From contig MERQ01000002.1 of NCBI GenBank assembly GCA_001770655.1, positions 8,877 to 56,352 of the forward strand: a stretch of DNA of 47,476 nucleotides, read 5' to 3'. Numbering within the stretch: position 1 is the first letter of the stretch; each line of letters starts with the position of its first letter. A model generated the notes under the pieces. The model was not told the DNA's origin and ran no database searches. It worked only from the letters and a program-made list of their open reading frames with translations. The position numbers and the translations under genes were made by a program. The stretch is from Betaproteobacteria bacterium RIFCSPLOWO2_12_FULL_68_20. Its GTDB lineage: Bacteria > Pseudomonadota > Gammaproteobacteria > Burkholderiales > SG8-39. Of the stretch, positions 4,237 to 7,416 are shown piece after piece.

Positions 4237-4848
4237 ATGGCGAGCAAGGTGCATCAGATCACGGTGTGGGCTCGGGGCGTGGTGCAGGACAAGGAGGGGC
4301 GCGACATCGCCAATGGCGTGGCGAGCGCGGCGGGCAGGGCCGGCAAGTTCACCCAGGCCTTCGACAACTACGTGGATCTACCCGACCGGGTGAACGTGCC
4401 GCTCAGGAAATACGCCCGCATCAGCGACGAGGAAATCGAGGAACGCTACGAATACGAGAACGCGACGCCCGAGATCGTGATCGTGGCGGACGCCACCATC
4501 GTGAAGGGCATCAACATCCTGCGCGGGATGGAGAAAGGCGGCACCCTGGTGGTTGCCACCGACCGCAAGCCGGAGGAGATCCTGAAATTCATCCCCAACA
4601 AGGACCTGCTCGGCACCATCGTTTGCGTCGACGCCAAGGCGATCTGCGGCGATCAGACGGTGGACTTCTCCGGCAGCGAGGGCGGCGTGGATTCGCTCGG
4701 CATCGGTCAGGGAATCTCGGCGCCGATCCTGGGCGCCCTGGCTCGCGGCACCGACCTCGTCACGCTGGACAGTCTTGACGCCGTGGTGAAGAACAAGGAA
4801 GCCCTTCACAAGGGTCACGAGCAGGCCGTGGTGAAGGCCCTCAACTAG
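4237..4848 (+). CDS. 2-oxoacid (probable oxalate) oxidoreductase, gamma subunit
   Basis: Gamma subunit (203 residues) of a multisubunit thiamine-diphosphate 2-oxoacid:ferredoxin oxidoreductase. It has the family signature ITVWARGVVQDKEGRDIAN at the N-terminus, where the usual GxGGQG loop is replaced, and a conserved domain ending with a SEGGVDSLGIGQGISAPILGALA segment. In the family this subunit is structural and supports the CoA or substrate-access side of the alpha/beta core. An AGGAGGGG ribosome site lies just before the ATG. It is the first gene of a nine-gene co-oriented operon, 29 bases before the ferredoxin-like delta gene. Oxalate as substrate is inferred from the alpha subunit. It could act on another 2-oxoacid. 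Confidence 0.85.
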   Translation: MASKVHQITVWARGVVQDKEGRDIANGVASAAGRAGKFTQAFDNYVDLPDRVNVPLRKYARISDEEIEERYEYENATPEIVIVADATIVKGINILRGMEKGGTLVVATDRKPEEILKFIPNKDLLGTIVCVDAKAICGDQTVDFSGSEGGVDSLGIGQGISAPILGALARGTDLVTLDSLDAVVKNKEALHKGHEQAVVKALN

Positions 4849-4877
4849 CTCGGATCGAGCTCGACGGAGATCACGCC

Positions 4878-5204
4878 ATGTTCAATATCCCGAAGGACAA
4901 AGAGGTGCCTCTCGGATGCGTCACGCCGGCGCCGGTGACCGAGCAGCCCATGATGATCACCGGCAACTGGCGCGAATACCGGCCGGTGCTCGAGCCCGAG
5001 AAGTGCGACCTGTGCATGAACTGCGTGGTGTTCTGCCCGGACGCCTGCTTTCAGCTGGACGAAGCCGAAGAGATGGTGGTCTTGAACGAGAAGTACTGCA
5101 AAGGCTGCAACATCTGCATCAACGAGTGCGCCACCAACGCCCTGACCGAAGCCTACGAGCTGGATTTCGAGGACGGCGTGGTCCGGCTCGAGACGCCGTT
5201 CTGA
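4878..5204 (+). CDS. 2-oxoacid (probable oxalate) oxidoreductase, delta subunit (2[4Fe-4S] ferredoxin domain)
   Basis: Small electron-transfer subunit of 108 residues. Two [4Fe-4S] motifs are visible: Cys43, 46, 49, 53 (CDLCMNCVVFCP) and Cys74, 77, 80, 84 (CKGCNICINEC). The second lacks the usual Pro after the fourth Cys. It should pass electrons from the beta-subunit cluster to external ferredoxin. The gene lies between the gamma and alpha genes, only 12 bases before alpha. In the Moorella enzyme, as I recall, the gamma and delta parts are one polypeptide; here they are separate, whereas the second oxidoreductase downstream has them fused. Confidence 0.92.
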   Translation: MFNIPKDKEVPLGCVTPAPVTEQPMMITGNWREYRPVLEPEKCDLCMNCVVFCPDACFQLDEAEEMVVLNEKYCKGCNICINECATNALTEAYELDFEDGVVRLETPF

Positions 5205-5216
5205 GGAGCAACCACC

Positions 5217-6410
5217 ATGCCAAGAGAGATGATGTTGAGCGGGTGCGCCGCCTCGGCGCAAGCGGCCAAGATGGCCCAGGTCGAGGTGATCTGCTCGTAT
5301 CCGATTCGCCCCTACACGGCGATCATGATGGAGCTGGCCAAGATGGTGGCCAACGGCGAGCTGGACGCCGAGTTCGTTCACGGCGAGGGCGAGCATGCGC
5401 AGCTTTCAGTGGTGCTCGGCGCCGCGGCGGCGGGCGCACGTGCCCTGACGGGGAGCTCCGGGGTGGGCGTCACCTACGCATTCGAGACCTATTCCCCGAT
5501 CGCGGGCGGGCGCATTCCCCTGCAGATGATGATCGCCGATCGCGCGCTCGACCCTCCGGGCGACTTCGGGTCGGAGCACACCGATGCGATGTCCTGCCGG
5601 GATCAGGGCTGGCTCATGGGATGGGCCGAGAATCCCCAGGAGGCGTTCGACAACTGCCTGATCAATTATCGCGTCGGCGAGGACCACCGCGTGCTGCTGC
5701 CCCAGTTCGTGTGCCAGGACGGGTATTTCGTGTCTCACATGCCCGGAAAGGTCGTGCTGCCCGATCAGGGCCAGGTGGACGAGTTTCTGCCGCCCTACAA
5801 CCTGCCGCACCCGCTCGATCCGAAGCGCCCGGTGTCGCACGGGCCGCAGATTCGCCCCGACCAGGGCACGATCATGGACCTGCAAAGGGCGCAGGCGATG
5901 CTGGATGCGCCCGCGGTGATCAGGGAGGTGATCGACGATTTCAACCGCATCTTCGGACGGAATTACTCGCCGTTCGTGGAAGAGTACATGACCGACGACG
6001 CGGAGATGGCCTTCTTCATCATGGGCGCCCACACGATGACGGCGCGCCATGCGGTCAGACACCTGCGCAGCCAGGGCGTGAAGATCGGCCTCGTGAAGCT
6101 GCGCTTCGTGCGGCCGTGGCCGACTCAGGAAGTGGCCGAGGCGCTGTCGAAGTTCAAGGCCGTGGGCGTGGTCGAAACCAGCACCTCCTACGGCGGGGCG
6201 ATGCGCGGCGGAAACCTCCTGCACGAAGTCCGCGCTTCCCTGTACGAGCTTCCGCAGCGGCCGTTGACCACCTCGTTCATGGCCGGCCTGGGCGGCGAGA
6301 TGGTGCCGCTGAAGGAGTTCTATTACATGGCCGACATCCTGTCCAAGGCCGTCAAGGAGGGCAAGACCAGGAAGACCGTGTATTGGGTCGGCTTCGAGGC
6401 CGAGGAATAG
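5217..6410 (+). CDS. 2-oxoacid:ferredoxin oxidoreductase alpha subunit with oxalate oxidoreductase active-site residues
   Basis: Alpha subunit (397 residues) with the pyrimidine-binding domain, substrate-specificity region and C-terminal domain of the family. The conserved YPITPxT motif of pyruvate:ferredoxin oxidoreductase is here YPIRPYT, placing Arg at residue 31. Arg109, Asp112, Asp116 and Phe117 occur in IADRALDPPGDFGSEHTDAM. By recollection of the Moorella thermoacetica oxalate oxidoreductase structures, Arg31, Arg109 and a mobile loop carrying these Asp and Phe residues attract the dianionic oxalate and drive its cleavage to two CO2. The length also matches that alpha subunit. The predicted reaction is oxalate plus oxidised ferredoxin to 2 CO2 plus reduced ferredoxin, in the cytoplasm. 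Activity on glyoxylate or another small 2-oxoacid is not excluded. An in-frame ATG preceded by GAGGAG fixes the start. Confidence 0.85.
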   Translation: MPREMMLSGCAASAQAAKMAQVEVICSYPIRPYTAIMMELAKMVANGELDAEFVHGEGEHAQLSVVLGAAAAGARALTGSSGVGVTYAFETYSPIAGGRIPLQMMIADRALDPPGDFGSEHTDAMSCRDQGWLMGWAENPQEAFDNCLINYRVGEDHRVLLPQFVCQDGYFVSHMPGKVVLPDQGQVDEFLPPYNLPHPLDPKRPVSHGPQIRPDQGTIMDLQRAQAMLDAPAVIREVIDDFNRIFGRNYSPFVEEYMTDDAEMAFFIMGAHTMTARHAVRHLRSQGVKIGLVKLRFVRPWPTQEVAEALSKFKAVGVVETSTSYGGAMRGGNLLHEVRASLYELPQRPLTTSFMAGLGGEMVPLKEFYYMADILSKAVKEGKTRKTVYWVGFEAEE

Positions 6411-6438
6411 AACCTAACGCTGCCCGAAAGGAGGCCAG

Positions 6439-7416
6439 ATGGCCGTCGCCCTGAAAACCCAGAACCTTCCGCCGATCAAGCTGATCCGGAACGTTCCCAA
6501 GGAAGAATACTACGTGCCCGGGCACCGGACCTGCGCCGGCTGCGGCCCGGCCCTGCAGTACAAGCTGGTGGCCAAGGCGGCCGGCCCCAACACCATCTTC
6601 CTGGGGCCCACCGGCTGCATGTATGTGGCCAATGCCAGCTACCTTTGCACTCCGTACACGGTGCCCTGGATGCATACCCAGATCACCAACGGCGGAGCGG
6701 TGGCCTCGGGGATCGAGGCCGCCTACAGGGTGCTCCTGCGCAAGGGCAAGCGCGAAGGCGAGCTGCCCAACATCATCGTGATGGCGGGCGATGGCGGCTC
6801 GGTGGACATCGGCCTCCAGGCGATGTCGGCCATGATGTACCGCGGGCACGATGCGCTGTTCATCTGTTACGACAACGAGGCGTACACCAACACCGGTATC
6901 CAGACCTCGCCCACCACGCCGTACGGAAGCAACACCACCTTCACGCCTCCGGGGTCCGCAATTCCCGAGGGCAAGAAGCTGTTCCCCAAGGACCCTCCGC
7001 AACTCGTCATCGGCGGCCACCCGGCGGTGAAGTATGTGGCTACGGCCTCGGTGGCATACCCGGTCGACTTGATCAACAAAGTACGCAAGGCTCTGAACGT
7101 GCAGGGGCCGACCTTCCTGCACATCCATTGCCCCTGCCCCAAGGGATGGAAGTTCGACGCGGCGAAAACGATCGAGGTCGCCAGGCTCGCCATCGAGACC
7201 GGCATGTGGAACATGTACGAGTGGGAAAACGGAGAGTACCGGTACCAGTTCAAGCCCAAACGGTACAAACCGGTTCGCGAGTACCTGAAGCTGCAGGGAC
7301 GGTTCGCGCATCTGGCGGACGTCCACGTCGCCAAGCTGCAGGCGTTCGTGGACGCGAAGGTGAAGGCGCCCGGCATCCCGGTAGAGACTCCGGTTCCCAC
7401 GCCGCCGGTGCACTGA
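6439..7416 (+). CDS. 2-oxoacid (probable oxalate) oxidoreductase, beta subunit (thiamine diphosphate-binding)
   Basis: Beta subunit of 325 residues. It binds the diphosphate of the cofactor and one [4Fe-4S] cluster. Cys32 and Cys35 ([11 protein letters not shown]), Cys60 (GPTGCMYV) and a Cys in the CPCPKGW motif (231/233) are candidate ligands. The thiamine motif runs from GDGGSVDIG (117-125) to [11 protein letters not shown] (143-153). A good AGGAGG site precedes the ATG. With the alpha subunit it forms the catalytic core. The gene ends 16 bases before the fused gamma-delta gene of the second oxidoreductase, so both enzymes are probably made from one message. Confidence 0.9.

Follow-up and report, generated by a model that had tools for sequence, protein, structure and literature searches.

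Can a betaproteobacterium draw low-potential electrons directly from oxalate, and which genes accompany such an enzyme? This question is raised by a locus on contig MERQ01000002.1 (positions 8,877 to 56,352) of Betaproteobacteria bacterium RIFCSPLOWO2_12_FULL_68_20 (GCA_001770655.1), a stretch of 47,476 nucleotides that was analysed as a whole and is referred to as the window. The oxalate oxidoreductase (OOR) of acetogens cleaves oxalate to two CO2 and reduces ferredoxin. A first-pass annotation had recognised a four-subunit 2-oxoacid:ferredoxin oxidoreductase (OFOR) of this type at positions 4237-7416 of the window. The open reading frames (ORFs) do lie at those positions, and sequence comparison confirmed that they encode the predicted gamma, delta, alpha and beta subunits of an OOR (EC 1.2.7.10). 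This enzyme adds a member to a known family, and the operon that contains it is a new variant.

Identification of OOR genes

The four genes are all on the forward strand, in the order gamma (4237-4848, recognised as an ORF and by its NCBIfam model), delta (4878-5204, ferredoxin-like, with two CxxCxxCxxxC motifs), alpha (5217-6410) and beta (6439-7416, binding thiamine pyrophosphate, TPP). The alpha subunit was assigned by phmmer, NCBIfam, alignment, a tree and a predicted model. It was 60% identical to the alpha subunit of Moorella thermoacetica OOR (PDB 5c4i, 5exd, 5exe), whose subunit content is alike, across 389 aligned residues. In the phmmer comparison with solved chains, alpha matched 5c4i_A with 530 bits, far above chance, followed by pyruvate:ferredoxin oxidoreductase (PFOR) with 219 bits; the margin of the best solved chain over the runner-up was 311 bits for alpha (5c4i_A) and 246 bits for beta (5c4i_C). 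The lengths of both subunits agreed with the Moorella enzyme as the annotation had proposed, alpha having 397 amino acids against 395 in 5c4i_A and beta 325 against 314 in 5c4i_C. The NCBIfam model for OOR alpha was passed with 599.1 bits (cut-off 500). Taken alone, the gamma gene scored 237.1 bits against the model for the fused gamma-delta chain of Moorella (cut-off 230), and the delta gene matched the second part of that model (97.4 bits).

For comparison with relatives, named genomes were scanned once, yielding 95 sequences, of which 80 loci were kept; with the window these make the 81 OOR loci referred to below. While gamma and delta form one fused chain in Moorella, they are two genes in the window, and according to our gene calls a fused chain of more than 280 amino acids occurs in 12 of the 81 loci and not in the other 69. 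Two other enzymes were ruled out as candidates, namely phenylglyoxylate dehydrogenase (PadG model 273 bits, cut-off 700) and PFOR (PorA_Arch 322.5 bits, cut-off 550; Arg, not Thr, in the YPITP motif).

The catalytic residues support the same assignment. Passages of PMC5020499 name Arg31, Arg109 and Asp116 of OOR alpha and term the YPIRP motif unique, and passages of PMC12654022 give gamma Glu154 and beta Asn143 as catalytic. By alignment, the YPIRPYT motif, R31 (codon 5307-5309, forward strand, as are the following), R109 (5541-5543), D112 (5550-5552), D116 (5562-5564) and F117 (5565-5567) have identical numbering in the window alpha and Moorella alpha, as the annotation had stated. Glu154 and Asn143 of Moorella are retained as gamma Glu148 and beta Asn151 (alignment; numbering of M. 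mulderi, L081). R109, D112, D116 and F117 are present in all 81 OOR alphas. The 21 outgroup OFOR alphas have T or S at position 31 and lack D at position 112 without exception; R109, by contrast, is common to both groups.

An alpha tree, which had been suggested as a check, placed the window inside the OOR clade. In this quick tree, from which five of the 80 locus alphas were omitted as short (L075, L077, L117, L118, L119), 77 OOR rows were split from the 21 other OFOR alphas with SH-aLRT 100, the outgroup being flagged for long branches, and the window grouped with betaproteobacterial metagenome-assembled genomes (MAGs) and the Methylomirabilota row L076 with support 99. Alpha was also modelled with AlphaFold from 30 OOR alphas; the model had a mean confidence (pLDDT) of 79.5 and matched 5c4i best (TM-score 0.92).

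Several observations count against the assignment. The beta subunit scored 588.7 bits with its NCBIfam OOR model, 1.3 bits under the cut-off of 590. R31 is present in 81 of 81 OOR alphas, yet one seed pattern of the search for relatives contained R31. The plug loop of the alpha model (residues 110-122) is poor, with pLDDT below 50, and the model also matches the alpha of PFOR (PDB 9bt4) with TM-score 0.89, so the fold by itself cannot decide between OOR and PFOR; this PFOR shares R109 with the window alpha and differs from it in having Thr at 31 and Ser at 112, in its score and in lying outside the OOR clade. Finally, no transporter gene was identified within the window's own OOR operon. Set against these, the tree, the curated models, the catalytic residues kept in three subunits and the transporters that adjoin OOR in other loci strongly support oxalate as the predicted substrate.

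Distribution and origin of OOR

The 80 loci fell under nine phylum labels: Bacillota, Synergistota, Actinomycetota, Pseudomonadota, Methylomirabilota, Nitrospirota, Thermodesulfobacteriota, Myxococcota and Verrucomicrobiota. These labels, which follow the titles of the records, are uncertain for some MAGs. The annotation's statement that OOR was described in acetogens holds as such and understates the spread of homologues in public genomes, as the distribution of OOR reaches well beyond acetogens. Four loci came from MAGs titled Betaproteobacteria, whose alphas are 91-94% identical to that of the window, and the nearest alphas beyond these are those of Methylomirabilota L044 and L076 (77-82% identity). 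Among relatives OOR is scarce: one of 61 genomes, the window's own, exceeded the cut-off, and in the phylum sample one of 398 genomes had a match at E 1e-100. The G+C content of the OOR genes is 0.640, compared to 0.699 beyond position 15200 of the window. This patchy spread and lower G+C suggest that the OOR genes were gained horizontally. Among the titles, abstracts and some passages of the literature that were covered, we recognised no report of OOR in a betaproteobacterium or of the ATPase link described below; Pierce 2010 and Gibson 2015/2016, which might mention it, lie outside that material.

In eight actinobacterial loci (L097-L102, L112, L117), gamma and delta are separated by a GltD-like FAD gene and no CDC48-type gene is present, an arrangement that suggests an NAD(P)-linked variant of OOR. 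A ClC-type chloride channel family gene is found near OOR in another set of eight loci (L078, L081, L087, L111, L113-L115, L073).

A CDC48-type ATPase adjoining OOR

Nine genes on the forward strand between 4237 and 15099 are close-packed, with gaps of about 30 bases or less. The last of them (12985-15099) encodes an AAA+ ATPase with a CDC48 N domain and two AAA modules, both of which have Walker A and B motifs. CDC48/VAT-type ATPases (PDB 5g4g) have the same N domain and two modules; unlike them, the window ATPase is encoded by an OOR-linked gene and falls under the TIGR01243 cut-off (752.9 bits, cut-off 802.65), and since this cut-off was missed we label it CDC48-type rather than CDC48. Its link to OOR, absent from the first-pass annotation as were the ATPase itself and the second OFOR and NfnAB of the same operon, is the most interesting part of the operon.

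According to gene clustering, an ATPase gene adjoins OOR in 62 of the 81 loci, upstream in 59 and downstream in 3, the latter being L040, L041 and the window only. In M. stamsii and M. mulderi it is upstream, and in Methylomirabilota L076 the order is CDC48-gamma-delta-alpha-beta. A tree made from the 55 of 62 linked ATPases with 560 amino acids or more placed all 55 on one side of a branch (support 97), apart from 22 unlinked ones. ATPase distances also track alpha distances (r 0.69, 0 of 2000 permutations, 51 loci), a correlation to which host descent contributes. The window genome holds a single copy; among 60 relatives, five have such ATPases, all of just 38-43% identity. As a control, CDC48 was found in none of 25 OFOR loci, which is a weak control since these loci span 3.3-4.2 kb and include the window's own OOR (L003), whose ATPase lies outside the stretch. 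Nor did CDC48 turn up in the more extensive surroundings of two further OFORs, L038 (16 kb) and L126 (20 kb). Of the unlinked CDC48 copies, the two closest to the linked group (L128, L129) had no OOR or OFOR match within neighbourhoods of 4.4-5.1 kb.

It is quite plausible, nevertheless, that the ATPase is a passenger of the operon that serves general protein quality control and has no specific tie to OOR. No ATPase was found next to OOR in 19 of the 81 loci. Eight of these are actinobacterial; in the remaining 11 the sequence on the side in question does not exceed about 2.4 kb, and L047 shows a fragment of the gene at its end. L060 and L090, in which roughly 2 kb precede gamma and contain no ATPase, were counted as exceptions. 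For 9 of the 19 a match was present elsewhere in the genome. Such ATPases also occur in 18 of the 398 phylum-sample genomes (the window's included), two of them at 52% identity, and the 52% identical ATPase of genome G151 is full-length and found without OOR. With 12 further copies from OOR genomes in the tree, the linked label no longer formed a single group and required 6 changes. Among the four of these 12 rows that were listed, L167 and L171 grouped with unlinked copies, and L161 and L162 lay among linked copies, as would be expected of broken contigs. On the other side stand the linkage in 62 loci, the single well-supported group of 55 and the tracking of alpha by the ATPase. Thus we regard the ATPase as OOR-associated, with a probable, if putative, role in the assembly or reactivation of OOR.

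Organization of the operon

Between OOR and the ATPase, all on the forward strand, are a second OFOR (OFOR2), composed of a gamma-delta fusion (7433-8431) and an alpha-beta fusion (8442-10718), and NfnA-like (10729-11577) and NfnB-like (11577-12974) subunits. OFOR2 has Thr at the R31 position and is therefore not an OOR. Both Nfn subunits are closest to Nfn among solved structures; their best matches are chains of NADH-dependent ferredoxin:NADP oxidoreductase (PDB 4ylf, 5jca), with 267 bits to 5jca_S for NfnA and 555 bits to 4ylf_B for NfnB. Bifurcation by the window NfnAB, which differs in sitting in an OOR operon, would be a predicted activity. The Moorella OOR has neither a second OFOR nor NfnAB with it, and no NfnAB was found in the Methylomirabilota loci L044 and L076.

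A flow of electrons from OOR to NfnAB, as proposed below, has a point against it, in that the OFOR2-NfnAB genes are present at 77-86% identity in a genome of the same family (G026), where 20 kb of sequence matched neither OOR nor CDC48. In L040, the OFOR2 proteins (L040:12187-14942) alone are divergent from those of the window, with 60-62% identity compared to 87-93% for the OOR, Nfn and CDC48 proteins, by replacement or fast change of that part. Both observations indicate that OOR-ATPase and OFOR2-NfnAB are separable, and in the operon of this lineage an OOR-ATPase unit has been combined with an OFOR2-NfnAB unit gained here.

Divergent from the operon, a LysR-type regulator of 315 amino acids is encoded on the reverse strand (3137-4084, ATG at 4084). 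The region between it and gamma (4085-4236) contains stretches conserved in L040, L042 and L043 and is a likely control region. The best NCBIfam model for the LysR protein was CbbR (259 bits, cut-off 450), although the genome gave no RuBisCO match. Most other OOR loci have a GntR-type gene at that place; a GntR-type regulator is near OOR in 55 of the 81 loci, including L044 and L076, where it stands in place of LysR. The genome also carries a third OFOR (L038:8844-12351, contig C45), consisting of a GltD-like gene, a ferredoxin part, an alpha with YPITPQT and a beta, for which the best NCBIfam model was PorA_Arch (422 bits, cut-off 550).

The oxalyl-CoA route and transport

The annotation had suggested that oxalate is used through OOR instead of the usual oxalyl-coenzyme A (oxalyl-CoA) decarboxylase route. 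This part was contradicted by the rest of the genome. The decarboxylase gene oxc is broken across two contig ends, with 704.9 bits on contig C43 (model positions 2-401) and 297.4 bits on C1 (382-553), each piece being under the whole-gene cut-off of 739.4, and the oxc piece on C1 is followed by the formyl-CoA transferase gene frc (560.7 bits, cut-off 504.2). Upstream of oxc on C43 are genes for a formate dehydrogenase alpha chain (761 bits over 666), a formate-tetrahydrofolate ligase (893 bits over 652) and a tripartite transporter. Since oxc, frc and formate dehydrogenase are in the same genome, OOR stands beside the usual route and does not replace it, which is another difference from Moorella OOR. 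As to the low-oxygen setting that the annotation had considered possible, haem-copper oxidase genes are present in this genome as well.

In a search of 46 of the 80 OOR locus genomes, oxc was found at E 1e-150 or better in three, all over the cut-off: the betaproteobacterial L040 and L043, where frc adjoins oxc, and the actinobacterial L099. None was found at that threshold in the betaproteobacterial L041 and L042 genomes, possibly owing to a gap in the MAG. With oxc in two of four betaproteobacterial OOR genomes and three of 46 overall, possession of both routes is mostly a betaproteobacterial trait within this sample.

The TctA and TctC proteins of C43 are 73% and 74% identical to those adjoining OOR in the betaproteobacterial MAG L042 and resemble, more distantly, their counterparts adjoining OOR in other phyla. 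TctC is near OOR in 21 of the 81 loci, and a TctCBA transporter adjoins OOR in L076, unlike in the window. Other transporters adjoining OOR are of the MFS type in 20 of the 81 loci, the single one tested scoring 431.5 bits against an oxalate/formate antiporter cut-off of 335, and an LctP-like permease occurs in nine loci including both Moorella ones; the permease of L078 scored 270 bits, under its cut-off of 341.

The function of the OOR itself could be doubted in three ways. First, the complex may be an OOR by descent only, its substrate now being some other small 2-oxoacid, for instance glyoxylate or mesoxalate. OFOR substrates change with few residue changes, and the closest assayed enzyme is 60% identical; on the other hand, every named catalytic residue is retained across three subunits, the residues do not vary in 81 alphas, and the remainder of an oxalate pathway is in the genome, so that we consider drift unlikely. 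Second, the OOR contig could belong to another organism and have been binned with this genome, which consists of 109 contigs with 2.6% estimated contamination and in which the G+C of the OOR genes is below that of the remaining window. Such an artefact is very unlikely, given that the operon and rpoC are side by side on the same contig, that four other MAGs titled Betaproteobacteria have a closely similar OOR alpha and that oxc and frc of two such genomes are 84-93% identical to those of this one. Third, the complex might run in reverse and make oxalate from CO2, as OFORs can be reversible, but the very low potential of the CO2/oxalate couple and the oxalate-degrading genes of the genome make this very unlikely as well.

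Three further possibilities found no support. An oxalate-fed Calvin cycle was considered because the LysR protein is nearest CbbR, but PF00016 had no match in the genome. For oxalate-fed nitrogen fixation, the NifH family gave a partial match of 34 bits, which exceeds the cut-off of 25 but spans just positions 5-46 of 271, and a second match of 21 bits. For glyoxylate carboligase the best match had 348.7 bits (cut-off 711.2).

Other genes in the window

A possible acid degradation cluster lies at positions 20877-31025, where a GntR/FCD regulator, a thiolase, an AMP-binding ligase, an acyl-CoA dehydrogenase, a methylmalonyl-CoA mutase-type domain and xanthine dehydrogenase-family subunits follow one another. 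A hydantoinase B type gene (17033-18679) and a hydantoinase A type gene (40354-42426), both on the reverse strand, are about 22 kb apart.

Discussion

The gene content leads us to consider a functional OOR, working beside a complete oxalyl-CoA route, as probable in this organism. Oxalate would enter through tripartite transporters and be bound by Arg31 and Arg109 of alpha, above TPP held by beta. OOR would then cleave it to two CO2, independently of CoA, and two electrons would pass via [4Fe-4S] clusters to ferredoxin. Reduced ferredoxin may be used by NfnAB of the same operon, with NADH, to form NADPH, by OFOR2, or by both. In parallel, frc, oxc and formate dehydrogenase would convert oxalate to formyl-CoA, formate and NADH, and formate could feed folate metabolism. 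Oxalate would thereby be shared between two routes in the cell, one yielding low-potential electrons and one using CoA. The least certain step concerns the CDC48-type ATPase, which would most likely assemble, reactivate or clear OOR.

Tentatively, a wider proposal may be made: that a dedicated CDC48-type ATPase assembles, reactivates or clears OOR in the manner of Rubisco activases, that the pair moved jointly between phyla, and that it has here been joined to OFOR2-NfnAB, so that oxalate could drive NADPH formation beside the complete oxalyl-CoA pathway.

With these results, the direct oxidation of oxalate linked to ferredoxin is extended to a genome that bears oxidase genes, lies near betaproteobacterial MAGs and also has the CoA route. 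Since both routes are in one genome, how oxalate is divided between them becomes a testable question. That a CDC48-type ATPase travels with a single metabolic enzyme across phyla is unexpected, and if the ATPase acts on OOR, the pair would offer a simple bacterial system for a p97-type machine serving one enzyme.

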